Positions 17,404 to 39,324 of a stretch of 49,134 nucleotides of DNA are shown here, piece by piece. Origin of the DNA: Acetobacteraceae bacterium (GTDB lineage Bacteria > Pseudomonadota > Alphaproteobacteria > Acetobacterales > Acetobacteraceae). Location of the stretch: the NCBI GenBank assembly GCA_030041255.1, contig JASHOF010000163.1, positions 1 through 49,134 of the forward strand. Direction: 5' to 3'. Numbering within the stretch: position 1 is the stretch's first letter; each line of letters starts with the position of its first letter. The notes beneath the pieces were generated by a model, which ran no database searches, was not told where the DNA came from, and was given only the letters and a program-made list of their open reading frames with translations. The position numbers and the translations under genes were made by a program.

Positions 17404-18708
17404 ATGCGTCATCGTATCATCGTGGTCGGGGGCGGTGCGGCGGGCCTCGAGCTCGCCACACGACTCGGCGACAGGCTCGGCAGGCGAGGTCGCGCCGAGG
17501 TCGTCCTGGTCGAGAAATCGAGGGCGCATCTCTGGAAGCCGCTTCTGCACGCGATTGCCGCCGGCAGCATGAACCCGGGCGAGCATGAGCTCGATTACCT
17601 GGCGCAGGCGCACTGGCACGGGTTCCGCTTCCGCTTCGGTGAGATGATCGGCCTGGATGGCGAGCGGAAGGAAGTGCGCCTCAGCGCCATGACGGACGAC
17701 GAAGGCCGACCGATCACACCGCTGCGCTCCATTGCTTACGACACCCTGGTGATCGCGGTCGGCAGCATCACCAACGATTTTGCGACCCCCGGGGTGGCCG
17801 AGCACGCGATCCCGCTCGAGACGCCGGAACAGGCGGGGCGGTTCAACCGTCGCCTGGTCAATGCCTGCATCCGTGCCCAGACCCAGCTGGAGCCGGTGCG
17901 GGCCGGGCAATTGCACGTCGCCATCATCGGGGCCGGCGCGACCGGCACGGAGCTGGCCGCGGAACTGCACAGGACGGTTCGCGAGGTGCTCGCCTACGGC
18001 CTGGACCGGGTCGATCCGGAACGGGATGTCCGCATCGTGCTGATCGAGGCGGCCGATCGCATCCTGCCGGCGCTGCCGCTGAGAATCTCCGCTGCCACGC
18101 GCACGCTGCTCGAGAAGGTCGGAGTCGATGTGCGGACCGGGGCACGCGTCAGCGAGGTGACAGCAGCGGGCGTGCACTTGGCCGGAGGGGAGTTCATTCC
18201 TTCCGAGCTCGTCGTCTGGTCGGCGGGTATCAGGGCACCCCCGGTGCTCTCTGATCTCGGCCTGGAAACGAATCGCCTCAACCAGCTTCTCGTCGGCCCC
18301 ACCCTGCAGACGACGCGGAATCCGGACGTATTCGCAATCGGCGATTGCGCATCCTGTCCCCGCCCCGGATTTCCGGACCCGGTGCCGCCGCGGGCCCAGG
18401 CCGCCCACCAGGAGGCCTCGCACCTGTTCCACCAGGTGCAGCGGAGGCTTGCCGGCAAGCCGCTGCAACCCTTCGTCTATCGGGACTTCGGTTCATTGGT
18501 GTCGCTCGGCAAATACTCCACTGTCGGCCAGCTCATGGGGGCAGTGGTGGGCAGGGGCTTCTTCGTCGAAGGCTATTTCGCGCGGCTGATGTACCGCTCG
18601 CTCTACACCATGCACGAGATGGCCCTGCACGGCTTCGCCAAGACCGTTTTCAGCGCGCTTGCGAGGAGCCTTTCCAGGCACGCCCAACCGGTCGTCAAAC
18701 TGCACTGA
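17404..18708 (+). CDS. ndh: Type II NADH dehydrogenase (NAD(P)/FAD-dependent oxidoreductase)
   Basis: A single-subunit, non-proton-pumping NADH:quinone oxidoreductase, about 434 residues. The FAD motif IIVVGGGAAGLELA starts directly at the chosen ATG (17404), the NADH motif is VAIIGAGATGTELAAEL, and VFAIGDCAS is the second FAD-binding signature. AQAAHQEA (quinone-side helix) and a C-terminal amphipathic region (FVEGYFARLMYRSLYTMHEMALHGFAK) suit membrane attachment. The frame is open to 17290, but that N-terminal extension (proline/glycine-rich) is unlike the family. The gene stands alone, with 195 bases before it and about 130 after. Confidence 0.92.
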   Translation: MRHRIIVVGGGAAGLELATRLGDRLGRRGRAEVVLVEKSRAHLWKPLLHAIAAGSMNPGEHELDYLAQAHWHGFRFRFGEMIGLDGERKEVRLSAMTDDEGRPITPLRSIAYDTLVIAVGSITNDFATPGVAEHAIPLETPEQAGRFNRRLVNACIRAQTQLEPVRAGQLHVAIIGAGATGTELAAELHRTVREVLAYGLDRVDPERDVRIVLIEAADRILPALPLRISAATRTLLEKVGVDVRTGARVSEVTAAGVHLAGGEFIPSELVVWSAGIRAPPVLSDLGLETNRLNQLLVGPTLQTTRNPDVFAIGDCASCPRPGFPDPVPPRAQAAHQEASHLFHQVQRRLAGKPLQPFVYRDFGSLVSLGKYSTVGQLMGAVVGRGFFVEGYFARLMYRSLYTMHEMALHGFAKTVFSALARSLSRHAQPVVKLH

Positions 18709-18837
18709 AAGGGAGCCTGCGCCGGCCCGGCGGCCATCGATACGACGATGGCTGTGTCCCGGATCCGGCCATTTGCCGGGAGCGCAAACTCCGCTATCCG
18801 GGATCGGGCAGCCGCAACCCGAGGCGAGGAGTGGAAG

Positions 18838-20613
18838 GTGTTCACGACGCGACCCGAGATCGCCGCGACCTTCGGCGTGGTTGCCAGCACACACTGGATC
18901 GCAAGCCAGGTGGGCATGGCGGTCCTCGAACGCGGCGGCAATGCGTTCGATGCTGCCGCTGCAACCGCCTTCACTCTGCAAGTGGCCGAGCCGCATCTCA
19001 ACGGGCCGGGCGGCGATGTCCCGATCATTTTCCATTCCGCGAAAAGCGGCACGCAACACGTGATCTGCGGCCAGGGCGTGGCGCCGGCCGGCGCCACGAT
19101 CGAGCGGTTCTCCGCGCTCGGGCTCGATCTCATCCCCGGCACCGGCCTGTTGCCCGCGGTAGTGCCGGGTGCGTTCGATGCCTGGTGCCTGCTGCTGCGC
19201 GACTGGGGCAGCCTGGAGCTTGCCGAGGTGCTCTCGTACGCAATCGGTTATGCGGCCAGCGGCGTTCACCTCGTGCCGCGGGTTTCGGCGGCGATCGAGA
19301 GCGTGCGGCCCCTGTTCGAGGAAGCCTGGCCGAGCAGCGCCGCCGTCTATCTGCCGCATGGCGCGGTGCCGGCGCCCGGCAGCCTGTTCGCCAATCCGGC
19401 GCTCGCTCAGAGCTATGCGCGGATTCTTCGGGAAGCGCGGGGGGCCTCGCGTGAGGCGCGCATCGATGCTGCGCGCGCCGCCTGGTATCGCGGATTCGTT
19501 GCCGAAGCGGTCGATCGGTTCTTTGGCAAGAACGATGTGCTCGACGCCTCCGGCGAGAGGCACCGCGGCTTCCTTGCAGCGGACGATTTCGCGCGCTGGA
19601 AAGCCAGCGTCGAAGAAGCCGTCTCGTTCGCGTACCACGGTCATACGGTGCTGAAATGCGGGCCCTGGAGCCAGGGGCCGGTGCTCCTCCAGCAGCTTGC
19701 GCTGCTCGGGAATTTCGATCTCGGGGCGATGGACCCGCTCGGCGCGGATTTCGTGCACACGATCGTCGAATGCGCGAAGCTCGCGTTTGCCGACCGCGAG
19801 GCCTACTACGGCGACCCCGCGTTCGTTTCCGTTCCGCTCGGAGAGCTGCTTTCGCCGGACTACAATGCGCAAAGGAGTCGTCTCGTCGGGCGAGAGGCTT
19901 CACTCGAGCTCCGCCCCGGAATGGTTGCCGGCCGTCCGGTTCGGGTCGACCAGGACGCCGCCGGCCGCGCCGCGCTGCTCACTCCACTGCCGGGCACCGG
20001 CGAACCGACGCTCGCGCGCCTCGGCGTGATCGGTGCCGACACCTGCCATATCGACGTCATCGACCGCGCCGGCAACATGGTCAGCGCCACCCCTTCGGGC
20101 GGGTGGCTGCAATCCTCTCCGGTGATCCCGGAACTCGGCTTCTGCATGGGAACGCGCGGGCAGATGTTCTGGCTCGCCCCCGGTCTGCCGAACAGTCTTG
20201 CGCCCGGGAAACGTCCGCGGACGACGCTTTCGCCCTCCTTCGCCCTCCGGGAAGGCAAGCCGTGGATGGCCTTCGGCACGCCGGGCGGCGAGCAGCAGGA
20301 CCAATGGTCGCTGATCTTTTTCGTGCGCATGGTGCATCACGGGTTCACCATCCAGCAGGCGATCGACCTGCCGAGCTTCCATACCGAGCACTGGCCGTCG
20401 AGCTTCTGGCCGCGCGTGGCGCGGCCGGGCAGGCTCGTTCTCGAAGGGCGCTATGCCGACGAAGTGCGCGACGATCTCGCCGGGCGTGGGCATCTGGTCG
20501 AGAAGGGAGAGGATTGGTCTGAAGGGCGTCTGTCGGCTGCACGAGTCGAGGGGCGGCAGATGTTCGCCGGGGCAAACCCGCGCGGGATGCAGGGCTATGC
20601 CGTCGGAAGATGA
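18838..20613 (+). CDS. Gamma-glutamyltransferase family protein
   Basis: An Ntn-hydrolase of about 591 residues in the gamma-glutamyltranspeptidase family, which self-cleaves at a conserved Thr to give large and small subunits. The likely nucleophile is Thr402 in ADTCHIDVIDRAGNMVS; GGNAFDAA and LNGPGGD mark the large subunit. There is no signal peptide, so this cytoplasmic subgroup may act on gamma-glutamyl or acyl compounds other than glutathione. GTG at 18838 is chosen because GAGGCGAGGAG lies seven bases upstream and the product then starts FTTRPEIAATFGVVASTHW, typical of this group. Convergent with the lytic transglycosylase gene, 20 bases apart. Confidence 0.9.
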   Translation: MFTTRPEIAATFGVVASTHWIASQVGMAVLERGGNAFDAAAATAFTLQVAEPHLNGPGGDVPIIFHSAKSGTQHVICGQGVAPAGATIERFSALGLDLIPGTGLLPAVVPGAFDAWCLLLRDWGSLELAEVLSYAIGYAASGVHLVPRVSAAIESVRPLFEEAWPSSAAVYLPHGAVPAPGSLFANPALAQSYARILREARGASREARIDAARAAWYRGFVAEAVDRFFGKNDVLDASGERHRGFLAADDFARWKASVEEAVSFAYHGHTVLKCGPWSQGPVLLQQLALLGNFDLGAMDPLGADFVHTIVECAKLAFADREAYYGDPAFVSVPLGELLSPDYNAQRSRLVGREASLELRPGMVAGRPVRVDQDAAGRAALLTPLPGTGEPTLARLGVIGADTCHIDVIDRAGNMVSATPSGGWLQSSPVIPELGFCMGTRGQMFWLAPGLPNSLAPGKRPRTTLSPSFALREGKPWMAFGTPGGEQQDQWSLIFFVRMVHHGFTIQQAIDLPSFHTEHWPSSFWPRVARPGRLVLEGRYADEVRDDLAGRGHLVEKGEDWSEGRLSAARVEGRQMFAGANPRGMQGYAVGR

Positions 20614-20633
20614 GGCGGGCGATCGCGGGCTGG

Positions 20634-21503
20634 CTAGCGCCGGAGAGCGGACGTTGCCGAGGCGATCGCCACCGGTGCTGCGCGGTACCAGGCGAGGCCA
20701 TGACGGACGAAGCCGCCGGAGCGTAGCAGCAGGTTGGCGGGAGCCGGCCGATTGGTGAGCATGAAGGCTCCAGCCTGGCCGGCGAAGGGACCGGAGGCGG
20801 CTGGCATCGGGCGGAATACCCGAACCCCGGCCATCATCGACGGAACCATCAACCCGTCGGCCGGCAGGGACGCCGATATGCCGGCGGCGAGGCGTTGGCT
20901 CGCCGGCCATGCAGCCATGACCTTGCGCTCGTAGTCGGCGGCGAGGACGGGGGTTGTCGAGTGATAGAAGGCCGCTGCCTCCGGCCAGCTTCCGGTCTCG
21001 CTGTGGAGTTCATTCAGGAAGCGAGCTGCGTAGGCAGCGTTGGTCGGGGGGTCGAAGGCCTGGTCGAGGGACGCGAAGGCGTCGGGATGATGCAGCAGGT
21101 TGACCTGCATGCAGCCGACGTCGATCGACTGGATGCCCTCTGCCTGGAACGACCGGACGGCGGTGACCGCCGCCTGTTTGGTCGGGTAGAAGTGGCCGTC
21201 GCCGTCGGCGTCCACGGTCCAGGGCCAGGGCAGAAAAGCGCCCGTGAGCGGGTCCCGCCGGCCGCTTTCGACCTCGCCGATGGCGCCCAGGAGGCCGGTC
21301 GGAATGGCGGAATTCTGCTCTGCCGAGACGATCGCGGCGCGGCATAGCTGGCCGGGCTCGATTCCTCCCAGGATCGGAAGCGCCGCCTCGGCCGGCTTCG
21401 CGACGAGGCCGAGCAGCAGAGGCAGCGCGACGGCCACAAGGCCAAGCGCCGGGTGCTGACGACAACCCGAAAACAGCCGCGAACAGCATGCGAACAGCGC
21501 CAT
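20634..21503 (-). CDS. Lytic transglycosylase (SLT domain), secreted
   Basis: A periplasmic peptidoglycan hydrolase of 289 residues. The N-terminus is a signal peptide (hydrophobic GLVAVALPLLLGLV, likely cleavage after AEA near residue 40). The SLT fold shows the catalytic Glu in AIGEVESGRRDP and the IDVGCMQVN segment, with a later AAFYHSTTP motif. The C-terminal third is proline/alanine-rich and without a recognised domain. Such small SLT proteins often accompany secretion systems or flagella, but no such genes are nearby. Confidence 0.9.
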   Translation of the reverse strand: MALFACCSRLFSGCRQHPALGLVAVALPLLLGLVAKPAEAALPILGGIEPGQLCRAAIVSAEQNSAIPTGLLGAIGEVESGRRDPLTGAFLPWPWTVDADGDGHFYPTKQAAVTAVRSFQAEGIQSIDVGCMQVNLLHHPDAFASLDQAFDPPTNAAYAARFLNELHSETGSWPEAAAFYHSTTPVLAADYERKVMAAWPASQRLAAGISASLPADGLMVPSMMAGVRVFRPMPAASGPFAGQAGAFMLTNRPAPANLLLRSGGFVRHGLAWYRAAPVAIASATSALRR

Positions 21504-21605
21504 TCGGGGAGCATTGCTCAGGCATGGTTACCAGAGCGTTGCCGGCCGGCGCTTCACAACATGATGAGGCGGCTCAGAAAGTTATGCCGCAATGCAAAAA
21601 AAGAC

Positions 21606-21634
21606 TTGCAACGGGCTATGCAAGCGCTTAGATT
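21606..21634 (+). promoter_or_regulatory. Candidate promoter of the small RNA, with inverted repeat
   Basis: TTGCAA (21606-21611) and TAGATT (21629-21634) are spaced 17 bases apart, as in a housekeeping promoter. The spacer contains half of the inverted repeat CTTGCA (21605-21610) / TGCAAG (21619-21624), a possible operator. Transcription would begin near 21641. Confidence 0.4.
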
Positions 21635-21640
21635 GTGCGT

Positions 21641-21728
21641 CGCAGCAGTACGGCTTCGCCGGGCTGCCTGCTTTTCTTGGACGTTTCCTCCCTAAACTTG
21701 GCGGCGCCGCAAGCGCCGCCATTTTTTT
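21641..21728 (+). ncRNA. Candidate small RNA with CCTCCC loop and intrinsic terminator
   Basis: About 88 nucleotides between a plausible promoter and a strong terminator, with no reading frame of note. The 5' part can fold (GCAGC...GCTGC enclosing CGGC-TTC-GCCG). A single-stranded stretch then holds TTTCCTCCCT, complementary to ribosome-binding sites. The 3' end is an 8-bp GC stem (21700-21707 with 21713-21720, loop CGCAA) followed by seven Ts. CCTCCC-loop sRNAs acting on Shine-Dalgarno sequences are known in alphaproteobacteria; membership here is inferred. It may instead be a processed or read-through RNA end, since the T-run overlaps the stop of the opposing gene. Confidence 0.5.
21700..21728 (+). 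terminator. Rho-independent terminator
   Basis: GGCGGCGC (21700-21707) pairs with GCGCCGCC (21713-21720), followed by ATTTTTTT. This is the strongest intrinsic terminator noticed in the window. The T-run follows the stem only on the + strand, so it ends a rightward transcript. The nearest annotated genes run leftward, which is why a small RNA is proposed. Confidence 0.8.
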
Positions 21729-22596
21729 ACCCGGCGGCTGTCGTCGAGGCAGAACGCTCGAGTGCGGTCATCAGGTATTCGATGTCCCGCTGAAGCCGGG
21801 CAAACTCCGGCAGACGTTCCATCCGCTGCTCGAGCATGTAAAGGTCCCGCGCGATCTCGATCTGCAGCGCGTGCGTGTTTTCCCGTGGCCGGCCGTAGTG
21901 GCGGGTGATGTAGCCTCCGGAATAGGGATCATTGCGGCGGACCCGATAGCCGAGGCCGGAGAGCACTTGCTCGACCAGGCGTACGATGGCGGGGTCGCAG
22001 GTCGTGCCGTGGGCATCGCCGAGGACGAAGTCCGCCCGGCGGGCGGACAGCGCCTGGGGGGCAGGCATGGAGTGGCAGTCGATCAGGAGACAGGAGCCGA
22101 AACGCGCCCGGGTGTCGTCGATCAGGCCGGCCAGAGCGGTGTGAAAGGGCTCCCAGCAGTCTCTGATGCGCGCCCTGGCCTCGGCGAATGAGAGCTTGTC
22201 CCGATAGATCGTCTCGCCCGAGGCGACCACGCGCGGGATCGTGCCGAGGCCTGCTCCGACGCGCGCGCTCGCGCTGTTGACCCATGGCGGCAGCGGCTCG
22301 GCGAACATTTCCGGGTCGAGCTCCCAGCGCTCCCGATTGGGGTCGCAGTAGGCCCGCGGGAAGGTCGCGGCGAGGAGGGGGGCGCCGTGCGCAGGGGCAG
22401 GGGCGAAGAGTTCGTCGACGAAGCCGTCCTCGCTTTGCCTGAGTGCCAGCGGATCGAGTCGTGCCGCAGCCAGGAACGCGGCCGGGTAGGCCCGGCCGGA
22501 GTGTGGGGAGGCGAAGACGACAGGGATTTCCTGCCGTGCCGGGCGGTTCAGCACGAAGGGGGCGCGTGCATCGGCAATCGGCAGCGGCAGGTCCAT
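21727..22596 (-). CDS. N-formylglutamate amidohydrolase family protein
   Basis: A predicted Zn-dependent hydrolase of 289 residues in the HutG-type FGase family, which releases formate from N-formylglutamate in histidine breakdown. Typical features are FASPHSGRAYP near the N-terminus, DPNRERWELDPEMF, LLIDCHSMP (metal-binding Asp-Cys-His) and NDPYSGGYITRHYG. No hut genes adjoin, so a role on another N-formyl or N-acyl substrate is possible. ATG 22596 is chosen; the frame stays open to 22758 only because it runs antisense through the tRNA-Val gene, giving a well-known spurious extension. Confidence 0.9.
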   Translation of the reverse strand: MDLPLPIADARAPFVLNRPARQEIPVVFASPHSGRAYPAAFLAAARLDPLALRQSEDGFVDELFAPAPAHGAPLLAATFPRAYCDPNRERWELDPEMFAEPLPPWVNSASARVGAGLGTIPRVVASGETIYRDKLSFAEARARIRDCWEPFHTALAGLIDDTRARFGSCLLIDCHSMPAPQALSARRADFVLGDAHGTTCDPAIVRLVEQVLSGLGYRVRRNDPYSGGYITRHYGRPRENTHALQIEIARDLYMLEQRMERLPEFARLQRDIEYLMTALERSASTTAAG

Positions 22597-22685
22597 CGCA
22601 CATCCGAGTGAAGCCGGTCGGCGGACAATTGTCACCAGGGGAGAAGGCTTGCCGGCGCTTCCGCAGCCGCGATAGAAGGCCGAGG

Positions 22686-22760
22686 GGGCGTGTAGCTCAG
22701 CGGGAGAGCACCACCTTGACACGGTGGGGGTCCGAGGTTCGATCCCTCGCGCGCCCACCA
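22686..22760 (+). tRNA. tRNA-Val (GAC)
   Basis: A 75-nt tRNA with encoded CCA. The acceptor stem pairs GGGCGTG with CGCGCCC; the D arm contains TAGCTCAGCGGGAGAGCA; the anticodon arm is CCACC-TTGACAC-GGTGG with anticodon GAC; the T arm is CCGAGGTTCGATCCCTCG-like (GGTTCGATCC loop). It reads GUC and GUU valine codons. Confidence 0.97.
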
Positions 22761-22778
22761 GAAGCGCCGGTGCGGCGC

Positions 22779-23036
22779 CTAGGCAGGCATCGGCGGCAGC
22801 TTCAGATGCTCCTCGAGCCGTCGGACCCGGGCGTCCAGCTCGGTGATCAGGATTCCATGGCCCAGCACGCTCGCGTGATAATGGCCCACAGCCTGGCGCA
22901 GGTCGGTCAGGCCGGCGGCGAGCCCTTCGAGCTTCCGGCCCTGCTCATGCTGCGTGCGCAGAATGTCGCCCTCTGTGCGCAGCACGTCGCCAAGCATGGC
23001 GACCACCTGCCCGAGGTCCGCTCCATTGCCGCTCAT
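22779..23036 (-). CDS. Small hypothetical protein, predicted coiled coil
   Basis: An 85-residue protein starting ATGAGCGGC at 23036. Spaced hydrophobic residues (VVAMLGDVLRTEGDILRTQ, KLEGLAAGLTDLRQAV, LITELDARVRRLEEHL) suggest two or three amphipathic helices forming a coiled coil. No domain was recognised. The ribosome site is weak (GGA about eight bases upstream). It lies between tRNA-Val and the min operon on the same strand as the latter, 97 bases after minE, so it might be transcribed with it. Confidence 0.5.
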   Translation of the reverse strand: MSGNGADLGQVVAMLGDVLRTEGDILRTQHEQGRKLEGLAAGLTDLRQAVGHYHASVLGHGILITELDARVRRLEEHLKLPPMPA

Positions 23037-23133
23037 GTGCCAATCCTAGGCCGAGTGGTGGGGGAAAGGCCAGCGGTGCGCGCGGCCTTGCACGAGTCGG
23101 CCGGTAGGGCCAGTGGCCGACGGCCGCAAAACC

Positions 23134-23445
23134 TTACGTCGACGGCGCTGGCAGGAGCGGCGGGCCGGCGGGCCGGCGGCGTTTGCGGATCTGCTGATCG
23201 AGCCGGCCCGGCACCTCAATGTCGATCTCCAGCAATGACACCGCCTGGCCGCGCTCCAGCTTCACCTGCACCTTGTCATCATCGATCGTCAGATGTGCCG
23301 AGATCACTCTCAAGATCTCGTCGCGCAGCACGGCAAGCAGTTCGGAGTCGCCGCCATTGCCGCGTTCGTGCGAGAGCAGCACCTGTAGCCGCTCTCGCGC
23401 CACCGGTGCCGAGCGGCGGCGGCGGAAGAAGGAGAAGAGGTTCAT
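23134..23445 (-). CDS. minE: Cell division topological specificity factor MinE
   Basis: MinE stimulates MinD ATPase and drives Min oscillation so that MinC activity is lowest at mid-cell. The 103-residue protein has the N-terminal membrane-binding and anti-MinCD helix ([28 protein letters not shown]) and the topological-specificity domain ([18 protein letters not shown]...[21 protein letters not shown]). The tail [17 protein letters not shown] is longer than usual. The start overlaps the minD stop in an ATGA. Confidence 0.97.
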
Positions 23446-24260
23446 GCGATGGCCTTTCGCCCGAGCAGCCGGCTGATCAGGCTGCGCTTCTGGCTGGGGA
23501 ACGTCATCACCACCGTTTCACCGCGCAGCCGGCGCGCTGCGTCCAGATAGGCGCGGGTCGGCGCGCTCGCCGGGTTGTTGAGGGTTACCGGCACGCCGAG
23601 GTTGGAGGCCCGCAGCACGTCTTCGCTCTCGGGGATGATGCCGAGCAGCGGGATCGACAGGATCTCCAGCACGTCCTCGACCTTCAGCATTTCGCCGCGC
23701 GCCGCGCGGACGGCGTCGTAGCGGGCCAGCAACAGGTGCTTGTCGATCCGCTCGCCCCGCTCCGCGCGTTCGGTCTTGGAGTCGAGCAGGCCGATGATGC
23801 GGTCGGAATCCCGCACCGAGGAAACTTCCGGATTGGTGACCACGACCGCGATATCGGCGTGGCGCATCGCCAGCGTCGCGCCCCGTTCGATGCCGGCCGG
23901 ACTGTCGCAGATCACCCAGTCGAATTTTTCCCTAAGTTCGGCGATGACCTTGGCGACGCCTTCCGGTTTCAGCGCATCCTTGTCGCGGGTCTGCGACGCG
24001 GGCAGCAGCGACAGGGTCTCGATCCGCTTGTCGCGGATCAATGCCTGGTGCAGCCTGGCATCGCCCTGCACCACGTTGATGAGGTCGAAGACCACGCGGC
24101 GCTCGGCGCCCATCACCAGGTCGAGGTTGCGCAGGCCGACATCGAAATCGACCACCACCACGTGCTCTCCGGCCTGTGCCAGGGCGGCGCCGAGTGCGGC
24201 GGTGGAGGTGGTTTTGCCGACACCGCCTTTACCGGAGGTCACGACCACGACTCGGGCCAT
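23442..24260 (-). CDS. minD: Septum site-determining ATPase MinD
   Basis: A membrane-associated ParA-type ATPase that recruits MinC and is recycled by MinE. The deviant Walker A is [27 protein letters not shown] and the switch II region [10 protein letters not shown] are present. The C-terminus [15 protein letters not shown] is the amphipathic membrane-targeting helix. Length is 272 residues from ATG 24260, which has GAGGAG eight to nine bases upstream; an upstream in-frame start at 24281 has no support. The stop overlaps minE by four bases. Confidence 0.97.
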
Positions 24261-24287
24261 GTGCGTTTGCTCCTCTTTCACGCCCGC

Positions 24288-24989
24288 TCAATCCAACGCG
24301 GCGATCATTAGCGACTTGCCGTCGAGCCATGCCTGCACGGCTCTGCCGCGCAGCCCTGGCTCGATCTCATCGGCAGTGTGATAGAGCCCGTCGATTGAAA
24401 GAAACTCCGCTTCGAGCCTGCGGCAGAAAATGCGGGCGCTGCCGTTGCCTTTGAGGCCGGCCAGAGCGCGGCCGCGCAACGCGCCGTAGACATGGATGGA
24501 ACCGGTGGCGACGATCTCCGCACCGGAGGAGACCGAGCCGACGACGGTCAGGTCGCCATGCTCGAATACCACCGACTGGCCGGAGCGGACCGGCCGGTCG
24601 ATCAGCAGCGCGCTCGGCTCCTTGGCCGGGTGGGCAGCGGGGGAGGGGGCGCGAATGGCCACCGGCTTGCTGCTGGCACGCGTATTGGCGAGCGGTCGCA
24701 GTCCGGTTTTGATGCCACGCCACGAAGGGTGTGCGCCCTCGGTGCCGATGATGCGGACGCCGCGCTGCTCGAGCTGCTCGAGGAAGCCGGCAACATCGGG
24801 TGTCTCTGCTGGCAGCGCGATGAGTTCGACGATCACCGCCTGCTGGTCGAAGAAGGTCGGTGCGGCCTTGATCTGGGCATCCAGCGCGGCAAGCCAGTTC
24901 GCGAGCGGCGGTTCCGGCGTGAGCACGATGGCCATCAGCGACCGGCCGCGGACTCGGATCTGTGGGCGCGACTCGGAAGCTTCGCTCAT
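24288..24989 (-). CDS. minC: Septum site-determining protein MinC
   Basis: An inhibitor of FtsZ polymerisation delivered to poles by MinD. The 233-residue protein has the N-terminal FtsZ-inhibiting domain (LANWLAALDAQIKAAPTFFDQQAVIVEL) and the C-terminal beta-helix MinD-binding domain (VRSGQSVVFEHGDLTVVGSVSSGAEIVATGSIHVYGALRGRA, then RIFCRRLEAEFLSIDGLY). Residues 105-130 are a proline/alanine linker. First gene of minC-minD-minE, 27 bases before minD. Confidence 0.96.
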   Translation of the reverse strand: MSEASESRPQIRVRGRSLMAIVLTPEPPLANWLAALDAQIKAAPTFFDQQAVIVELIALPAETPDVAGFLEQLEQRGVRIIGTEGAHPSWRGIKTGLRPLANTRASSKPVAIRAPSPAAHPAKEPSALLIDRPVRSGQSVVFEHGDLTVVGSVSSGAEIVATGSIHVYGALRGRALAGLKGNGSARIFCRRLEAEFLSIDGLYHTADEIEPGLRGRAVQAWLDGKSLMIAALD

Positions 24990-25432
24990 CTTGCTCGGCT
25001 ATCTGGGTGGGGGGGCGGGCGTCAACATCTAAAAAAGCGATCATGCGATCGGTGCGCTGTAAGGCAGAGAATGCGTCGCTCCGGCACACCGCCTCCGGTG
25101 AGGTTGCAGCTTGTCCGATCGTGTTGCGGAAGCCGGTGATGAAGCTTATGGGTTTGCTCGTCGGGCGGGCAACGGCGAGGCCGTGACACGAGATCGGATT
25201 CGTAATGTCGCGCGCCGGCCGCCTTGGTCCGGGCACGCCGTTTTCCGATGCTCTATGGGTTCAGCCCGTAACGGGCGGCCAGGCCGTGGCTGCTCCCCGG
25301 CGAGGCTCGGATCTCTGATGGAGCACGCGGCGAAGCAGCGCGACTGCCTGACCGCCATCCGGGCCGTTCCGGCTGATCGTTCCGTTCCTGGCCAAGGCAG
25401 GCGGGAAAAGCCGCGGCGGGCCTCTCTTTCAC
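24990..25432. other. Intergenic region upstream of minC
   Basis: About 440 bases without a credible gene. The minC promoter should lie in 24990-25060; on the minus strand a T-rich stretch (TTTTTTAGATGTTGACG) is the only promoter-like feature noticed. The remainder up to the mmsA fragment shows no recognisable family in either direction. Confidence 0.4.
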
Positions 25433-25558
25433 CTCATCGTCGGAATGACGAAGCGCGCCCCGTCCTCAATGCCGGAGGGCCAGCGGCACCGGGATCGGCA
25501 CGTTGACGCCGACCATGCCGACATTGACTTTGGCCGCGAAATCGCGCGCGGCGTCGCC
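25433..25558 (-). pseudogene. Decayed fragment of the mmsA 3' end
   Basis: These 126 bases match the 3' end of the intact mmsA 2.3 kb away. Bases 25433-25485 correspond to 27781-27833, and 25486-25558 to 27944-28016, with 7 mismatches in total (about 94% identity). The missing 110 bases lie between two copies of GGCCAGCG in mmsA, so the deletion looks like slippage at that short repeat; it also shifts the frame. It encodes only the last residues of MmsA and is non-functional. Confidence 0.85.
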
Positions 25559-25575
25559 ATGGCGTCTAATCCTCA

Positions 25576-27480
25576 TTACTCGTCGAGCGGTGGCGGTCCG
25601 CCGGCTGTGACGTGATAAACGATCGTCTGGTGCGCGTCATCCAGGGTTTCCTGCCACGCGTATACGTCCTGACACCAGTTGAGAACCTGCCCCGTGTCAC
25701 CGGTACAGTCGATCAGGGCTCTCTCGGCGTCGTCGCCATTGCGATCAGTGCCCCACGGTGGAGGGCTCTTGATCCTGAGCTGATAGGTCCGGTCCTTGCT
25801 GTCCAGGAAGGTGATCTTGCAGTTGGTGATGCTGCTGCTGGTCCCGTCTATCCCCAGAGGCACTGCAAAGCTGGCGAAATTGGGATTCGTCGTGGTGTCC
25901 GGCGGTGAGCAGCGGCCGTACTTCTCAAAGCTGATCCCATAGCCGGGTGACGAATACCCGTAGGCTATGTTGACATTGGGAGTGGCATGATCCGGGTTCG
26001 GCAATTGACTGATTCCGCCGATCTCAATGACGAGGCCCGTGCCGTCGGTCTGCATGTTGCCCACCGCATCGTCGACCGAATATGCATACGTATAGGGCGC
26101 ATCGATATACTTCTGTCCGTGGATCAGTCCCACGTAGGGGTCGAACAGGCCATAAATGCCGGTGACCGGAAAGTTGTTCCAATACTGAAGGGCGTCGAAT
26201 TCTCTTTTGACACTTGCATAGTTTACCGGAAGCGCCGGGTTATCGTAGCCGGGCGTGTCCTGAAGAAGGTTCGCGTCGGCAGCGCAGCTATAGTTGAAGG
26301 GACCCCAGCCGTACAAATGCGCCAGCAGCATCGTTTCACTCGGCGGCCCCTCCGACGGCCCCTCGGGCGTCCCGCTGCACCCCCACTGCTTGTCGGTGCT
26401 GAAATTCTTCCGGTAATTCTCGAAATTTTCGTAAAGCAAGTTCGTAACATCGACAATGCTGGGGCAGATGGCATCCGTGCTCTTGCCCAGTACGCAGGAT
26501 TCCCAGAGACTCTCCATCTTCATCACCGGCGCTGACTGCGCCGGCGCGGGGTCGAACAGGTTTGTGGCGTTGAAATTCAGGAAGATTTCCAGCGCCGATG
26601 CGATCTTCGTGGTACCGGCATATACCGGCCAGCCGACACCATAGTCCGGCGCGTTGAGGAATCGGTCCATCGCCGCCGTAAAATCGTCGATCGAATTGGC
26701 GGCGCCGATCCAGCCGATCAGCTTGTTGCCGTACGGCTCCATGACGGCCGGCATATAGGCGTTATTGACGTATGAAACGTCATAATCGACGTTCGCGGCG
26801 TCAAACAGAAAGTGCGGCTGATTCGGCTGGGCATTCTGCGGGTTAACCGGGTTGGCACCCAACGTGTATTCGAGCAGTTGCTGGGGGGCGCTGTTCGGGA
26901 TCGAGGCCGTGTCGAAAAAGAAGTGCAACGTGCAGCCGCTGCAGGAGGGGGGTCCGCTGTAGATGGGCAGCTTGGTTTTCTCGGCGTTGTAATCGTCTGT
27001 CAGCGCCTGCGGCGGCTGTCCGGCGGAGGTCGCGTTCCGGAACACCTCGAGATGTCCGCCTTGCCACCAGTCAGCGAACTGGCCGGGCGGGGTCGTATCG
27101 GTCGGGTTGATGCTGGCCACCAGCGGCGAATAAAGCGGAAGCGCGATGGTGACCGAACCGCCGGGTGGAATGCCGTTCTCCCCCGCCTCGCAGCAATCGA
27201 TATAGAACCGGGATATTCCGGCCCGCGGGTAGGGATAACTACCGGAGGCGACCTGCTTGTTGGTGAGCTGGAAAAAGGCTTGCATCCAGCTGTCGAAAGC
27301 ACTCGCGGCGCCGGCCGAAAGGATCGGATAGATGTTGTAGCCGGAGGACGGTGCATTGAAAATCTGGATGGTCATGGTCGGGATCGGGTCGGCCGCGTCG
27401 GCGCTGCCAGCGGAGACGAGAAACGAAAGCGCCAGCAATCCTGCGAGCACGCTCGGCGCCGCTTTCGAGCACGATGGCAT
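25576..27480 (-). CDS. Secreted protein of unknown function
   Basis: A 634-residue protein with a signal peptide (APSVLAGLLALSFLVSAGSADA, cleavage near residue 29). The mature part is rich in aromatic residues, Pro, Gly and Cys (FYIDCCEAGENG, PPSCSGC, WGCSGTPEGPSEGPP), pointing to disulfide bonds outside the cytoplasm. The N-terminal third (TIQIFNAPSSGYNIYPIL; EYTLGANP; VDYDVSYVNNAYMP) is faintly like thaumatin or GH64 beta-sandwich proteins; this is a weak resemblance by eye. Base composition is visibly less GC-rich than its neighbours. ATG 27480 has GGGAGG seven bases upstream. It lies between intact mmsA and a partial mmsA copy, suggesting acquisition. Confidence 0.75.
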   Translation of the reverse strand: MPSCSKAAPSVLAGLLALSFLVSAGSADAADPIPTMTIQIFNAPSSGYNIYPILSAGAASAFDSWMQAFFQLTNKQVASGSYPYPRAGISRFYIDCCEAGENGIPPGGSVTIALPLYSPLVASINPTDTTPPGQFADWWQGGHLEVFRNATSAGQPPQALTDDYNAEKTKLPIYSGPPSCSGCTLHFFFDTASIPNSAPQQLLEYTLGANPVNPQNAQPNQPHFLFDAANVDYDVSYVNNAYMPAVMEPYGNKLIGWIGAANSIDDFTAAMDRFLNAPDYGVGWPVYAGTTKIASALEIFLNFNATNLFDPAPAQSAPVMKMESLWESCVLGKSTDAICPSIVDVTNLLYENFENYRKNFSTDKQWGCSGTPEGPSEGPPSETMLLAHLYGWGPFNYSCAADANLLQDTPGYDNPALPVNYASVKREFDALQYWNNFPVTGIYGLFDPYVGLIHGQKYIDAPYTYAYSVDDAVGNMQTDGTGLVIEIGGISQLPNPDHATPNVNIAYGYSSPGYGISFEKYGRCSPPDTTTNPNFASFAVPLGIDGTSSSITNCKITFLDSKDRTYQLRIKSPPPWGTDRNGDDAERALIDCTGDTGQVLNWCQDVYAWQETLDDAHQTIVYHVTAGGPPPLDE

Positions 27481-27776
27481 GGACGTCCTCCCTTCGGGAC
27501 CGGCCTTGGTCCGGTCTCAAAATGACGCAGCAGGTACGATAAGCCTATCGGCCGGGTAGAGCAAGAGCGCGGGCCGGCTTCGATTTCGGAAAGCGCCAGC
27601 CGGGCTGCTGCGACCCTTCCGGCAGGGTTCCGGCCCTTGCCGGTTCAGTACGCCCCTGCCGGCGCCGCGCGCGCATCAGCCGGATCATTGCGGCTGTGGC
27701 GGATCGCTTCGCGATTCCGAAGTTCGCCGCTTCGGGCCAGCTTCTCGCAATCGGCCGGCGCGGGGCGCTTCCCTGG
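27481..27776. other. Intergenic region between mmsA and the secreted-protein gene
   Basis: Nearly 300 bases with no gene seen. Next to the secreted-protein start is an inverted repeat GACCGGACC-AAG-GCCGGTC-like segment (27503-27520). At 27699-27716 the core GGATCGCTTCGCGATTCC also occurs inside the hairpin repeats at the right end of the window (49058-49075). Confidence 0.4.
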
Positions 27777-29276
27777 TCAGCTCATCGTCGGAATGACGAA
27801 GCTCGCCCCGTCCTTGATGCCGGAGGGCCAGCGCGAGGTGACGGTTTTCGTCTTGGTATAGAAGCGGATGGAGTCCGGCCCGTGCTGGTTGAGATCGCCG
27901 AACCCCGAACGCTTCCAGCCGCCGAAGGTGTGATAGGCCAGCGGCACCGGGATCGGCACGTTGACACCGACCATGCCGACATTGACTTTCGCCGCGAAAT
28001 CACGCGCTGCGTCGCCGTCACGGGTGAAGATCGCAACGCCGTTGCCGTATTCGTGCTCGCTCGGCAATCTCAGCGCCTCCGCATAGTCGCGGGCGCGCAC
28101 CACGGACAGCACGGGGCCGAAGATTTCTTCCTTGTAAATGCGCATCTCCGGTGTCACGCGATCGAACAGGCAACCGCCGATGAAGAAGCCCTTTTCGTAG
28201 CCCTGCAGCCTGAAGTCGCGCCCGTCCACCAGGAGTTCGGCGCCTTCGCGGATGCCGATATCGACGTAGGAGCGGACGCGATCGAGCGACTCGCGCGTCA
28301 CCAGCGGGCCGTAATCGGCGGCGGGATCGGTCGAGTGGCCGACCTGCAGCGCCTCGACACGCGGCACCAGCTTGCGGACCAGGCGATCGGCCGCCTCCTC
28401 CCCCACCGGCACGGCAGCCGAGATCGCCATGCAGCGCTCTCCGGCCGAACCGTAACCGGAGCCGATCAAGGCATCGACCGCCTGGTCCATGTCGGCGTCG
28501 GGCATGACGATCATGTGGTTCTTGGCGCCGCCGAAGCACTGCACGCGCTTGCCGCTTGCCGCTGCCGTTGCGTATATGTAATGAGCGATGGCGCTCGAGC
28601 CGACGAAGCCGACGGCCATGATCCCGGGATCGGTGAGGATGGCATCCACTGCTTCCTTGTCGCCGTTGACGACATTGAAGATACCCGGGGGCAGTCCGGC
28701 CTCCAGGAACAGTTCGCCCAGGCGGATCGGCACCGAGGGATCGCGCTCCGAGGGTTTCAGGATGAAGGCGTTGCCGCAGGCGATCGCCGGGGCGGCTTTC
28801 CAAAGTGGGATCATGGCGGGAAAATTGAACGGCGTGATGCCGGCGACGACGCCGAGGGGCTGGCGCATCGAGTAGATGTCGATCCCGGGCCCGGCCCCTT
28901 CGGTATATTCCCCCTTCAGGAGGTGCGGAATGCCGACGGCAAACTCCACGACGTCGAGTCCGCGCTGGATATCGCCGCGGGCGTCGGCGAGAACCTTGCC
29001 GTGCTCGGAGGACAGGAGGCGGGCGAGCGGCTCCATCTCGCGTTTCACGACCTGGAGGAATTCCATCATCACGCGGGCGCGCCGCTGCGGATTCGTGGCC
29101 GCCCAGGCCGGCTGGGCGGCGGCCGCATTCTCGACTGCGGCCCTCACCTCCGCACGCGAAGCGAGAGCCACCTCTGCCTGCACCTCTCCCGTGTTCGGGT
29201 CGTAGACATCGGCAAAGCGACCGGAGCGGCCCTGGACCTCTTTGCCGCCGATGAAGTGGTGGATTTGACGAGCCAC
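27777..29276 (-). CDS. mmsA: CoA-acylating methylmalonate-semialdehyde dehydrogenase
   Basis: An aldehyde-dehydrogenase superfamily enzyme that converts methylmalonate semialdehyde (valine breakdown) or malonate semialdehyde to propionyl- or acetyl-CoA. The 499-residue length is normal. Visible signatures: GVVAGITPFNFPAMIP, the NAD-binding FVGSSAIAHYIY, the catalytic Cys in SAGERCMAISAAV, and the typical C-terminal FGGWKRSGFGDLNQHGPDSIRFYTKTKT. GTG 29276 is chosen because GGGAGGAAG lies six to seven bases upstream and the product begins ARQIHHFIGGKEV. Other valine-degradation genes (mmsB) are not adjacent. Its 3' end is partly duplicated at 25433-25558. Confidence 0.96.
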   Translation of the reverse strand: MARQIHHFIGGKEVQGRSGRFADVYDPNTGEVQAEVALASRAEVRAAVENAAAAQPAWAATNPQRRARVMMEFLQVVKREMEPLARLLSSEHGKVLADARGDIQRGLDVVEFAVGIPHLLKGEYTEGAGPGIDIYSMRQPLGVVAGITPFNFPAMIPLWKAAPAIACGNAFILKPSERDPSVPIRLGELFLEAGLPPGIFNVVNGDKEAVDAILTDPGIMAVGFVGSSAIAHYIYATAAASGKRVQCFGGAKNHMIVMPDADMDQAVDALIGSGYGSAGERCMAISAAVPVGEEAADRLVRKLVPRVEALQVGHSTDPAADYGPLVTRESLDRVRSYVDIGIREGAELLVDGRDFRLQGYEKGFFIGGCLFDRVTPEMRIYKEEIFGPVLSVVRARDYAEALRLPSEHEYGNGVAIFTRDGDAARDFAAKVNVGMVGVNVPIPVPLAYHTFGGWKRSGFGDLNQHGPDSIRFYTKTKTVTSRWPSGIKDGASFVIPTMS

Positions 29277-29379
29277 GGCTTCCTCCCGAACAATCAAGTC
29301 TCTACCGGAGTAAAGCATGCCTGCCGGCGTACGGCCATGCCATGCCGGGCCGGCCCCGCTTTTCCTGTCGTGCCGCGCC

Positions 29380-33224
<3,845 letters not shown>

Positions 33225-33236
33225 GCGCGCTTCTCC

Positions 33237-34961
33237 TCAGATCGGGGCGGCGCGCCGGCGCGCGAATTCGTAGAGGGGCCGCCACAACAGCCGGTTCAGG
33301 ATCACGACGAAGCCGGACATGACCGCGATACCCAGCACAATGTGTGCGGTGTTGCCGTCATTCGTCGCCTCGGCGATATAGGCGCCGAGGCCGCGCGCGA
33401 CCAGCGTGGTCTGGCCCCAGGAAGCGACCTCGGCGACGATCGTCGTATTCCAAGCGTTGCCCATCGCGGTGATCGCGCCGGTGACGAGGTAGGGGAGAAT
33501 TCCCGGCAGGATCACGCGTCGCCACCAGAGCACCCCGCGGACGCGGAAATTGGCCGCCGCCTCACGCAGGTCGCCCGGGAAAGCGGCGGCGCCGGCGATG
33601 ACGTTGAAGAGCACGTACCACTGGGTGCCGATCAGCATCAGCGGCGTCAGCCAGATATTCGGATCAAGCCGGTAGCGCACGATCAGGATGACGATCAGCG
33701 GGAACAGCAGGTTGGCGGGAAAGGCGGCAAGAAACTGCGCCGCCGGTTGTGCCAGCCGCGCAACGCGCGGGCGGAGGCCCATCCAGACGCCGATCGGCAG
33801 CCAGACCAGAATCGAGATCGCCACCGCGGCGAGCACACGCAGCAGGCTGAAGCAGCCATCGATCAGCGTCTCGCCGAAGGCCGCGAGCGTCAGGCCGGCG
33901 GAAATGAAAAGAAAGATGCGCCAAAGCGCGACGGCGACGATCAGGGCGACAATGACCAGCCAGAGCCGGTCAGCAGTCCGGGACGGGGTGCGTGAAATCG
34001 GGGCGCGGCTTTGCCGAGGTGCGAGGCGGAGCCCGCCAAGTCCCGCGAGCACCGCCCCGATCGTCCGCGATCCGAGCCGGAGCAGCCGGGTGCGGCGCAG
34101 CAGCGCCAGTACCCAGGGCTCCGGCACCGGGACGACAGCCGTCGTCTCGACCCGGAACTTGTCCGCCCAGGCAACCAGCGGGCGGAACAGAACCTGATCG
34201 TAGATCAGGATCACCACCAGCATCGCCGCGATCGCCCAGCCGACAGCGGCCAGATTGCGATGGGCGAGTGCCAAAGCGACGAACGAGCCAATGCCGGGCA
34301 GGGTCCAGGTATGGCTGCCGACCGTGATTGCCTCTGACGCGACCACGAAGAACCATGCCCCCGACATCGAGAGCATGGTGTTCCAGACCAGGCCCGGCAT
34401 GGCGAACGGCACCTCGAGCCGCCAGAAGCGTTGCCAGGCAGAGAGGCGAAAGCTGCGTGCGGCCTCGTCGAGATCGGGTGGAACGGTCGTCAGCGACTGG
34501 TAGAAGCTGAACGTCATGTTCCAGGCCTGGCTGGTGAAGATGGCGAAGATCGCTGCGAATTCGAGGCCGAGCACGCGGCCGGGGAAGAGATTGACGAAGA
34601 AGACGACTGTGAAGGACAGAAATCCGAGAATCGGAACCGATTGCAGGATGTCCAGCAACGGCACGAGGATCACCTCGGCACGCCGGCTCTTCGCCGCCAG
34701 CGTGCCGTACCCGAGCGTGAACAGGATGGAGCAGACCAGAGCGGCGAACATGCGCAGCGTGGTGCGCACCGCATAATAGGGCAGGGCCGCGGGATCGAGA
34801 TGCACCGCCGCCAGCCCGGCGGTGGTGAGCGGGGCGAAGGTGCCCCTGACCGCCGGGGCGACGCCCATCAGCGCTCCGAGCACGGCGGCCGCGGCGATGA
34901 AGTCCCAGGCGTTCGGCAGCCGCGGCCGGATGGCCATGGCGGGATAGGTGATGTTCGGCAT
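33237..34961 (-). CDS. ABC transporter permease with two fused transmembrane domains
   Basis: Inner-membrane permease of 574 residues. Two BPD_transp_1 domains are fused: each half has a coupling EAA-like loop, DEAARSFRLSAWQRFWRLEVPFAMPG in the first and REAAANFRVRGVLWWRRVILPG in the second. About 12 membrane segments are predicted by eye, with a basic cytoplasmic linker near residues 285-330 (LLRRTRLLRLGSR). The fusion replaces the usual homodimer, so one polypeptide can form the channel. Together with the ATPase downstream this is a nitrate/sulfonate/taurine-type importer lacking its binding protein. Confidence 0.9.
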   Translation of the reverse strand: MPNITYPAMAIRPRLPNAWDFIAAAAVLGALMGVAPAVRGTFAPLTTAGLAAVHLDPAALPYYAVRTTLRMFAALVCSILFTLGYGTLAAKSRRAEVILVPLLDILQSVPILGFLSFTVVFFVNLFPGRVLGLEFAAIFAIFTSQAWNMTFSFYQSLTTVPPDLDEAARSFRLSAWQRFWRLEVPFAMPGLVWNTMLSMSGAWFFVVASEAITVGSHTWTLPGIGSFVALALAHRNLAAVGWAIAAMLVVILIYDQVLFRPLVAWADKFRVETTAVVPVPEPWVLALLRRTRLLRLGSRTIGAVLAGLGGLRLAPRQSRAPISRTPSRTADRLWLVIVALIVAVALWRIFLFISAGLTLAAFGETLIDGCFSLLRVLAAVAISILVWLPIGVWMGLRPRVARLAQPAAQFLAAFPANLLFPLIVILIVRYRLDPNIWLTPLMLIGTQWYVLFNVIAGAAAFPGDLREAAANFRVRGVLWWRRVILPGILPYLVTGAITAMGNAWNTTIVAEVASWGQTTLVARGLGAYIAEATNDGNTAHIVLGIAVMSGFVVILNRLLWRPLYEFARRRAAPI

Positions 34962-35068
34962 GGGGCGACCCCGAAGGGGGTGGGTGCGGGCCGCCTCTAG
35001 CTGCTTAAGGGCTGCTTGTCAGCACCCGAAACGCCGCGCGCGCGTGGTGGTTTCGTGACGGTCCGAGC

Positions 35069-35518
35069 TCAGAGACCGGTGCTGCCGAAGCCGCCTGCCG
35101 CGCGCCCGGTATCCGGCAGATCTGCAACCTCCTGCCAGAGAATCCGGACCACCGGGGCCAGCACTGCCTGGGCAATCCGCATGCCGCGGGTGAGAGTGAA
35201 AGGGGCATCACCCGCATTCAGCAGGATCACCATGATCTCGCCGCGGTAATCCTCATCGATCGTTCCCGGGCTGTTCGCGAGCATCACTCCGTGCCTGAGC
35301 GCAAGCCCCGAACGCGGCCGGATTTGCAGCTCGAAGCCGGACGGCAGAGCGACCTCGAGGCCGGTCGGCACCAGCGCCCGCCCGCCAGGCGGAATACCGA
35401 AGGGTTCGGCGATCGCGGCGGCAAGATCGAAGCCGGCCGCGCCAACCGTGGCGTATGCAGGCAGCGGCAGGTCGGCGGCGTGCGCGAGACGGCGCACCGG
35501 GACGGTGAGGCTGCTCAC
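35069..35518 (-). CDS. dut: Deoxyuridine 5'-triphosphate nucleotidohydrolase (dUTPase)
   Basis: It hydrolyses dUTP to dUMP and pyrophosphate, keeping uracil out of DNA and feeding dTMP synthesis. The trimeric-type motifs are all visible: [41 protein letters not shown] and the C-terminal GGFGSTGL. The 149-residue product starts at GTG 35518, which overlaps the coaBC TGA as GTGA; a longer frame to 35587 would run into coaBC. Confidence 0.97.
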
Positions 35519-36720
35519 GAGCCGAGCGAGGCGGCAATGCGCGCTGCCAGCCGGCGCGCCACCTCGGCCTTCGGCAGTCGCGGCCATTCCTCGAGGCCGG
35601 CCTCGCTCACCAGCAGCACGGCATTCTCGCCGCCGCCCATGATGCCGCTTCCTGGCGTGACATCGTTGGCGATGATCCAGTCACACCCCTTGCGCTTCAG
35701 CTTGGCCGCGGCATTGGCGCGAAGATCGTCTGTTTCGGCAGCAAAACCGATGACGCGCTTCGGCCGGAGCGGCCCGGCGGTGGCGAGGGTGGCGAGGATA
35801 TCGGGATTGGGCACCAGGGTGAGCTGCGGCGCGCCGGCGCCCGCTTCCTTCTTGAGCTTGTGGGCGGCTGCCTCGGCCACGCGCCAGTCGGCGACCGCGG
35901 CCGCGCAGACGGCGATATCGACCGGAAGGAGGGCCTGGCAGGCGGCGAGCATTTCGGCTGCCGTCTCGACGCGGCGCACCGTGACGCCGGGCGGGTCGGC
36001 GAGCGCGACCGGGCCCGAAACCAGTGTCACGCCGGCGCCGAGAGCGGCGAGTGCGGCGGCGATGGCGTGGCCCTGGCGGCCCGAGCTGCGGTTGGCGATG
36101 TAGCGGACAGGGTCGATCGGCTCATGGGTGGGGCCGCTCGTCACCAGCGCCCGCCGCCCGGCAAGCGGGCCGACAGAGAGGAGGGCCGCGATCGCGGCCA
36201 GGATGGAAGGCGGCTCGGCGAGCCGGCCGGGGCCGAATTCATTGCAGGCCATCGGGCCTTCCTCCGGGCCGACCACGGCCACGCCGCGGCCGGCGAGTGT
36301 CGCCATGTTGGCGACCGTGGCCGGATGGTGCCACATCCTGACATTCATCGCCGGGGCGATGAGCACCGGCTTGTCGGTGGCCAGCAGCACCGTGGAGGCG
36401 AGATCGTCTGCCAGTCCGGCGGCCATCTTCGCGATCAGATCGGCCGACGCCGGTGCGACCACCAGCAGGTCCGCAGCGCGCGAAAGCTGGATGTGGCCCA
36501 TGCGGCTTTCGGCGTCGAGAGAGAAAAGCTCGGTCGTGACGAAGTTTTCCGTCAATGCCTGCAGCGAAAGCGCGGAGATGAATTTCTCTCCGCCCGCCGT
36601 CAGCACGGCGCTGACATCGGCCCCGTCCGCCCTGAGGAGGCGCACCAGCTCGAGCGCCTTGTAGGCCGCGATTCCCCCGGAGACGATCAAGAGGATACGC
36701 CGGCCGGCGAGAGCGCCCAT
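35515..36720 (-). CDS. coaBC: Bifunctional phosphopantothenoylcysteine decarboxylase/phosphopantothenate--cysteine ligase
   Basis: Catalyses two steps of coenzyme A synthesis. The N-terminal CoaC flavoprotein half has [18 protein letters not shown], the PAMNxxMW motif in APAMNVRMW, and [17 protein letters not shown]. The C-terminal CoaB half (from about residue 190) has [25 protein letters not shown] and the [13 protein letters not shown] segments. The length of 401 residues is normal. Three bases separate it from ubiE upstream; its stop overlaps the dut start. Confidence 0.97.
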
Positions 36721-36723
36721 CTT

Positions 36724-37470
36724 TCAGAGCCGCCAGCCGGAATGGATGGCGGCGATGCCGCCGGAGAGCCGCTCGAAACCGATGCGTGCGAAACCGGCTT
36801 CGGCAAGCATGAGGGCAAGGGTCTCGGCGTCGGGGAACATGCGGATGCTTTCGGCGAGGTAGCGATAGCTCGCCGCGTCGCCGGCAACGATCCGCCCGAG
36901 AAGCGGAAGGGCGCGAAACGACCAGGCATCATAGAAGGGCGTCAGGGCGGCGACCTCGAGCCGTGAGAACTCGAGGCAGAAGAAGCGCCCGCCGGGCTTC
37001 AGCACCCGCCGCGCCTCGGCGAGCACGGCGTCCTTGTCGGTGCAGTTGCGCAACCCGAAGGCGATGCTGACGGTCGTGAACGTGCGGGCGGGGAGGGGAA
37101 GTGATTCTGCATCGGCAACGAGGAAGCCGAGCCCGGCAAGGGCCGCGCGCGCGAGAGCGCGGCGGCGCGCCACGTCGAGCATGGCCGGGTTGATGTCGGC
37201 GATGAGGACGGGCCCGCCCCCCCTGGCGCGCCAGGCAAAGGCGATATCGCCGCTACCTCCGGCAAGATCGAGGAGCCGCGCGGCCGGGCGCGGATCGAGC
37301 AGGCTGGCCAGCCGGCGCTTCCAGAGACGATGGACACCGAGCGACATCAGGTCGTTCATCAGGTCGTAGCGCGGCGCCACGGCAGCGAAGACCTTGCCCA
37401 CCAGTTCGGCCTTGGCGGCCCGGGGGACCGAGCGGAAGCCGAAATCGGTGGTCGCTGGATTGTCGCTCAT
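36724..37470 (-). CDS. ubiE: Ubiquinone/menaquinone biosynthesis C-methyltransferase UbiE
   Basis: SAM-dependent C-methylation of the quinone ring. About 248 residues. N-terminal [20 protein letters not shown] and [21 protein letters not shown] are characteristic; the SAM motif is [39 protein letters not shown] is the family signature. ATG 37470 ([12 protein letters not shown]) is chosen over 37497. Divergent from mutM by 29 bases. In related genomes ubiB usually follows ubiE; here coaBC follows directly. Confidence 0.96.
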
Positions 37471-37499
37471 GCCCGGGCAGCATAGCCTCTCACGCACCG

Positions 37500-39021: not shown

Positions 39022-39082
39022 AACGTCCGGCCTTCGCGAGGGTCGGCGGTTGGTGACGCCTTGCCCGTGACCACGCTGCTCG

Positions 39083-39215
39083 CTAGTGTGCCGACTCCAC
39101 CGCTTGATACCGTAGGATGCACCCTAGTGGTCGGCACACACCTCTTTATTTTCAGTGGCCTGCCAATCCCCTTTCGTTTGCTGCCGGCGGCAGCAAACGT
39201 CGGGGGCAGGACACT
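39083..39215 (+). mobile_element. CTAG two-hairpin element, copy B1
   Basis: Full-length relative of the element at 10551-10686, in the same orientation. It keeps hairpin 1, the conserved linker and hairpin 2, though one arm of hairpin 2 has changed (AAACGTCGGGGG instead of AAACGAAAGGGGG), as in copy C. Its left end is CTAG. At the right end the expected CACTAG reads CACTCG and joins directly to copy B2. Confidence 0.8.
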
Positions 39216-39292
39216 CGTGTGCCGACTCCAACGCTTGATACCGTAGGATGCACCCTAGTGGTCGGCACACACCTCTTTATTTTCAGTGGCCC
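39214..39292 (+). mobile_element. CTAG two-hairpin element, copy B2 (3'-truncated)
   Basis: Only the first hairpin and linker of the element remain (through TTTTCAGTGGC); hairpin 2 is missing. Its left end CTCG is read as CTAG with one substitution, shared with copy B1. It lies just upstream of the enoyl-CoA hydratase and could carry or disturb that gene's 5' region. Confidence 0.75.
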
Positions 39293-39324
39293 GGAAGCCG
39301 CTTGACGAACGCGAGGGCGGATTG

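Follow-up and report, generated by a model that had tools for sequence, protein, structure and literature searches.

A shortened second copy of the mmsA 3′ end beside a lineage-restricted gene in Acetobacteraceae, possibly the scar of an old recombination event

Results and Discussion

The 3′ end of mmsA, the gene for CoA-acylating methylmalonate-semialdehyde dehydrogenase, occurs twice in the genome of an Acetobacteraceae bacterium (G000; draft, 4.35 Mb, 187 contigs). A remnant of 130 bp, located 2.35 kb downstream and oriented alike, repeats the last 240 bp of the intact gene; between the two lies a gene for a 634-aa protein which is probably secreted, as its N-terminus reads like a Sec signal peptide. 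The gene occupies the same position in a sister species, the Acetobacteraceae MAG G004. We weakly favor an old integration or recombination event at the 3′ end of mmsA, earlier than the separation of the two species and followed by loss of the remnant in G004. All three elements of this reading, namely the integration, how old it is, and the later loss, are inferred, and the likelihoods given below for this and other readings of the origin are judgements, not computed odds. Proof of an old integration would explain the entry into the locus of a gene that only 2 of 397 sampled genomes of the family were found to have. As it stands, the remnant is a modest evolutionary scar that changes no view of a known system; it provides a small example of a gene tail that may record old recombination, and of spacers quickly rebuilt between two sister species.

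The window (the whole stretch of DNA that was analysed, 49,134 nt) reads, on the minus strand, gyrB–mmsA–634-codon gene–minC–minD (Table 1), minD being named by sequence reading. The intact mmsA matched TIGR01722 over model positions 1–477 of 477 (E 4.8e-193; 642.2 bits vs a cut-off of 448.5) and Pfam Aldedh with E 5.3e-140. The mmsA clade to which it belongs has a scattered distribution within the family (28 of 397 genomes at E 1e-252, both sister species included; the others are 75–80% identical). A second gyrB-like locus, ∼67% similar, is present in the G000 genome.

Table 1. Features of the mmsA locus (window coordinates).
Feature	Position	Strand	Basis or remark
minC	24288..24989	-	Pfam MinC_C, E 1e-29
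Spacer without G004 counterpart except a 15-bp near-match	25284..25428	.	
Remnant: partial, internally deleted mmsA 3′ end, pseudogene	25429..25558	-	93.8% over 130 columns
GGCCAGCG octamer, site of the 110-bp deletion	25478..25485	.	
Gene for a 634-aa, probably secreted protein without family name	25576..27480	-	Open frame
Spacer stretch between secreted-protein gene and mmsA, unlike in G000 vs G004; hairpin repeat in G004	27622..27709	.	
mmsA, CoA-acylating methylmalonate-semialdehyde dehydrogenase, intact	27777..29276	-	Start GTG at 29276 inferred; stop 27777-27779
mmsA 3′ end, counterpart of the remnant	27777..28016	-	Repeat search, alignment
mmsA stretch absent from the remnant, 110 bp, GGCCAGCG bounds at 27826 and 27936	27834..27943	-	
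gyrB-like topoisomerase subunit, upstream neighbor of mmsA	29380..31887	-	Named by sequence reading; matched in G001, G003, and G004

The remnant and its boundaries

The duplicate consists of two blocks of direct repeat, 25429-25485/27777-27833 (57 nt, 93%) and 25478-25558/27936-28016 (81 nt, 95%). Treated as one alignment with a 110-bp gap, remnant and mmsA differ at 8 of 130 columns; the original prediction had given 94% over 126 bases. The deletion that it had placed at a repeat in the short copy was likewise confirmed: the octamer GGCCAGCG occurs twice in mmsA (27826-27833 and 27936-27943), 110 bp apart, and once in the remnant, which therefore lost the 110 bp from one octamer to the next. 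Deletion between short direct repeats, of the replication slippage type, is an ordinary mechanism, and the loss of 110 bp including one of the two octamers does not differ from it. As 110 is not a multiple of three, the reading frame of the remnant is broken (confirmed by translation); its stop codon is kept. Partial gene duplicates and pseudogene remnants occur in bacterial spacers, and the mmsA copy resembles them in being short, frame-broken, and diverging, but differs in adjoining a lineage-restricted gene.

The second mmsA tail is not due to chance. In a search of the 4.35-Mb genome against itself, the two blocks had E values of 1.1e-30 and 2.8e-18, and the next match one of 0.015; no further copy of the tail was seen among the 40 of 90 candidates scored. 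Within the window, direct repeats of at least 45 nt (seed 12) comprised only one other family, a dispersed hairpin repeat.

Identity of the remnant to mmsA stops at the mmsA stop codon. BLAST extended the match 17 bp past this codon, but the 145 bp past the remnant (25284-25428), when compared with the DNA downstream of full mmsA, scored no better than 117 of 200 shuffles. The other end breaks off inside mmsA, and 17 bp separate it from the stop of the 634-aa gene, so that the truncated side is the one facing this gene. Displacement of the 3′ end of a gene would give both features. A tandem duplication of the mmsA tail together with the gene found no support, as neither the mmsA/gene spacer nor the gene could be recognized, at a level above shuffles, in the spacer past the remnant. 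At E 0.01, this spacer (25284-25428) matched nowhere else in G000 and at no place in G001–G004 (40 candidates scored per genome). A search of 24900-28100 against Rfam gave no match, and no tRNA gene lies at the junction, the only one in the window being tRNA-Val at 22686-22760. Spacer and remnant together (25062-25575) matched 156 plasmid records; among the 20 matches listed, all fell into the remnant part; for 15 the annotation was methylmalonate-semialdehyde dehydrogenase, and for the other 5 no gene was listed.

The secreted-protein gene

As originally noted, a gene of lower G+C almost fills the space between the copies (59.5% vs 65.7–67.2% for mmsA, minC, minD, and gyrB). Its product had no Pfam match above cut-off and no NCBIfam, PHROG, or PDB sequence match, and a structure predicted from the two available sequences had a mean pLDDT of only 30.9. 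Among the 397 genomes of the family, the two that have the gene are G000 itself and G004; a scan of a genome collection, reaching close relatives only, returned one locus, that of G004, and plasmids, phages, and viral contigs gave no match. A search of 398 genomes of the phylum gave one distant relative (502 aa, 35% identical), in G939, a member of another family of the class, where it adjoins a frame that reads like galU. Between G000 and G004 the protein is 92% identical, and dN/dS of its gene is 0.48 vs 0.04–0.13 in the four neighbors computed, which indicates a fast-evolving, not clearly neutral gene.

No recombinase was seen between the mmsA copies, an interval nearly filled by the 634-aa frame; the scan (Pfam, NCBIfam, and PHROG) was confined to this frame. 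Nor was an attachment core recognised at the mmsA copies.

Comparison with the sister species and other relatives

G004 has the same gene order as G000, gyrB–mmsA–secreted-protein gene–minC. Over 19.9 kb (window 18104-37773) the aligned pieces are 92.3–96.9% identical, the remnant's own matches being left out. The remnant is absent from G004, where a 69-bp, mostly unrelated spacer replaces 277 bp of G000 (25284-25560). Remnant and inserted DNA thus do not occur together in both species; as G004 has the gene without the remnant, the two are separable. The original prediction had regarded a relative of just this kind, with the gene at the same spot and no partial copy, as refuting integration. 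Nevertheless, the idea survives G004, because the divergence of the remnant would suit an age close to that of the split or greater, and loss in G004 is no costlier in events than gain in G000. G004 alone does not decide between the two, since each amounts to one spacer replacement.

Two further observations on the spacers were set aside. If G004 had undergone a precise deletion between CGCGGCG repeats, a possibility considered by eye, the product would fit the G004 spacer worse than the ∼92% seen alongside. A 15-bp near-match between the two spacers, ATGGAGCACGCsGCG, is too weak to fix polarity (2 of 200 shuffles were as good, and it was one of 12 comparisons).

In three other members of the genus (G001–G003), mmsA belongs to a different clade (62–63% identity); with the patchiness of the G000/G004 clade, this makes transfer or differential loss of the whole mmsA gene possible. 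The secreted-protein gene is absent from these genomes, and no gyrB, min gene, or secreted-protein gene was seen on their mmsA contigs. In G001 and G003, the frames next to gyrB on its downstream side are unrelated, and the frame upstream of minC in G003 reads like otsA. G002, which is 77% complete, gave no gyrB match. minC was not found in G001 (98% complete), and G002–G004 each had a match. A further 55 mmsA loci (the best ones of the searches, with flanks of up to 1.5 kb) had no gyrB, minC, minD, or secreted-protein gene. The empty site that had been predicted, mmsA followed directly by the region upstream of minC, was thus encountered neither in G001–G004, G001 and G003 being arranged otherwise, nor among the 55 further loci. 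With no empty site to read, comparison of the two species does not show whether G000 gained the remnant or G004 lost it.

Age and placement of the remnant

Remnant, G000 mmsA, and G004 mmsA vary at 11 columns: the remnant alone differs at six, G004 alone at three, G000 alone at one, and at one all three differ. Over the 130 columns the remnant is nearer to G000 mmsA (8 differences) than to G004 mmsA (10 differences). Five of the remnant's own seven changes fall on codon position 3 and two on position 1 (P 0.045 for at least five, binomial). Three of the seven alter the amino acid (K to E, S to R, and S to R), one of them at a third position and all within the last 13 codons, which suggests decay of the remnant rather than coding constraint. 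Values of dS between the species are 0.112 for mmsA, 0.100 for gyrB, 0.074 for minC, and 0.037 for minD, and the spacer at 25062-25283 has diverged by 7.7%. Judged against these, the ∼5% change on the branch of the remnant is compatible with an origin near or before the split of G000 and G004, with a wide error.

Among the 55 further mmsA genes, the base of the remnant is commoner than that of G000 mmsA at four of the seven columns, two of which are 27780 (24 vs 12) and 27990 (36 vs 15). At the other two, 28002 and 28008, it is found in 39 and 27 of the 55 relatives, and the base common to G000 and G004 mmsA in 8 and 1. It is rarer than the G000 base at 27803, 27815 (amino-acid-altering changes whose base occurs in none of the 55) and 27816 (a further change, 5 of 55). 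The topology tests, which took in 30 of the 55 relatives, choose no placement. In the 127-column tree, branching of the remnant before the split was better by 1.45 log-likelihood units, a nonsignificant difference (AU 0.24 for each alternative); in the full-length partitioned tree, the remnant as sister to G000 mmsA was better by 0.18 units (AU 0.20 for the others).

Origin of the remnant

According to the reading that we tentatively prefer, the remnant would be the tail with which mmsA originally ended, since displaced. Before the sister species separated, DNA that brought the secreted-protein gene together with a slightly divergent version of the mmsA tail would have recombined with the 3′ end of mmsA, through a site-specific recombinase or ordinary homologous recombination. 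The intact mmsA would thereby have received a new tail, and the old one would have come to lie beyond the secreted-protein gene with its orientation unchanged. This old tail would then have decayed, losing 110 bp between the two octamers, and in G004 the whole stretch would have been replaced by a short spacer. A comparable scar is left by prophage e14 in E. coli icd, where, according to two sources, DNA entering the 3′ end of the gene gives it a new tail and leaves the old one past the insert (PMC11148124; PMC6379469). The duplicate is described there as 165 bp with 12 nucleotide differences (PMC11148124) or as 163 bp (PMC6379469), compared with 240 bp, of which 130 are left, and 8 differences here. 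Both cases present a direct, 5′-truncated duplicate of the 3′ end of a housekeeping gene (icd' / icdC remnant in E. coli) beyond inserted DNA. Unlike e14, which is described as carrying an integrase gene (PMC11148124), the DNA considered here comprises one gene of no named family, the remnant is internally deleted, and the sister species lacks it.

Support for this reading, whose integration or recombination step the original prediction had proposed, comes from the common orientation of the copies, the truncated side facing the gene, and the other side ending at the stop codon. It also comes from the patchiness and lower G+C of a gene without plasmid, phage, or viral match, from the third-position lean and the relatives' bases at 28002 and 28008, from the early branch in the 127-column tree, and from the likeness to e14. 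The original prediction is partly supported; the scar shares the geometry of that of e14 and has diverged to a similar degree. Against it stand the gene without remnant in G004, the lack of a visible integrase, attachment core, or empty site in the DNA and relatives searched, the nonsignificant tests together with the opposite lean of the partitioned tree, the three amino-acid changes, and the rare bases at 27803, 27815, and 27816.

In the main rival reading, which we rate nearly as highly, the mmsA tail would have been copied locally in the G000 lineage. It would have entered the spacer between the gene and minC by an illegitimate event after or near the split, to be shortened at the octamer later, with the gene already present and unrelated. 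The absence of the remnant from G004 and the smaller distance to G000 mmsA are what such copying predicts, and the sister placement in the partitioned tree and the altered amino acids agree with it. The spacers around mmsA and the gene moreover turn over fast: in G004 each of three contains a hairpin repeat that is absent there in G000 (G004:C19:13603, 15354, and 17824; L032). However, the end at the mmsA stop codon would then be a coincidence, 8 differences in 130 columns are, in view of the dS values and the 7.7% spacer divergence between the species, near the maximum expected of a duplicate made after the split, and the remnant's changes lean to the third position.

The same lean suggests time spent under coding constraint and, together with the end at the stop codon, would suit a remnant that is the tail of a second, complete mmsA, tandem or transferred, which once lay between the secreted-protein gene and minC and was otherwise lost. 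The patchy distribution of the mmsA clade makes a transfer plausible. We nevertheless consider this unlikely: the first 84% of the gene was not found at the site, the upstream edge of the remnant lies very close to the stop codon of the secreted-protein gene, and a pair of such genes in tandem was not noticed in the relatives compared. It seems very improbable that an undescribed small mobile unit, made up of the secreted-protein gene plus a substitute mmsA tail and using a recombinase supplied from elsewhere, has its attachment site at the 3′ end of mmsA. An assembly artefact is hardly credible: the window is one contig of a draft genome, but eight substitutions and a clean octamer deletion are not expected from misassembly.

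Dispersed repeats

The hairpin repeat of the G004 spacers looks like a REP- or MITE-like element expanded in one species. A search for a Y1 transposase that might explain it found none in the five genomes. Its 28-base core (≤3 mismatches) occurs 204 times in G004, 18 times in G000, once in G002, and not in G001 or G003; a reversed control gave no hit. Where complete, the repeat comprises ∼104 bp with two hairpins, often starts with CTAG, and ends with GGGCTA or GGGCTAG. In several copies, if not all, the ends of the stem vary in a matched way (GACCGG/CCGGTC and GACCCG/CGGGTC). Loci in G000 are L084, L087, L089, L091, and L093. A second repeat family of ∼130 bp is present in four copies in the window (10539-10674, 39071-39337, and 42451-42583). 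Three of the four start with CTAG, two hairpins can be recognized by eye, and the first is followed by CTTTATT, as in many of the G004 repeat copies.
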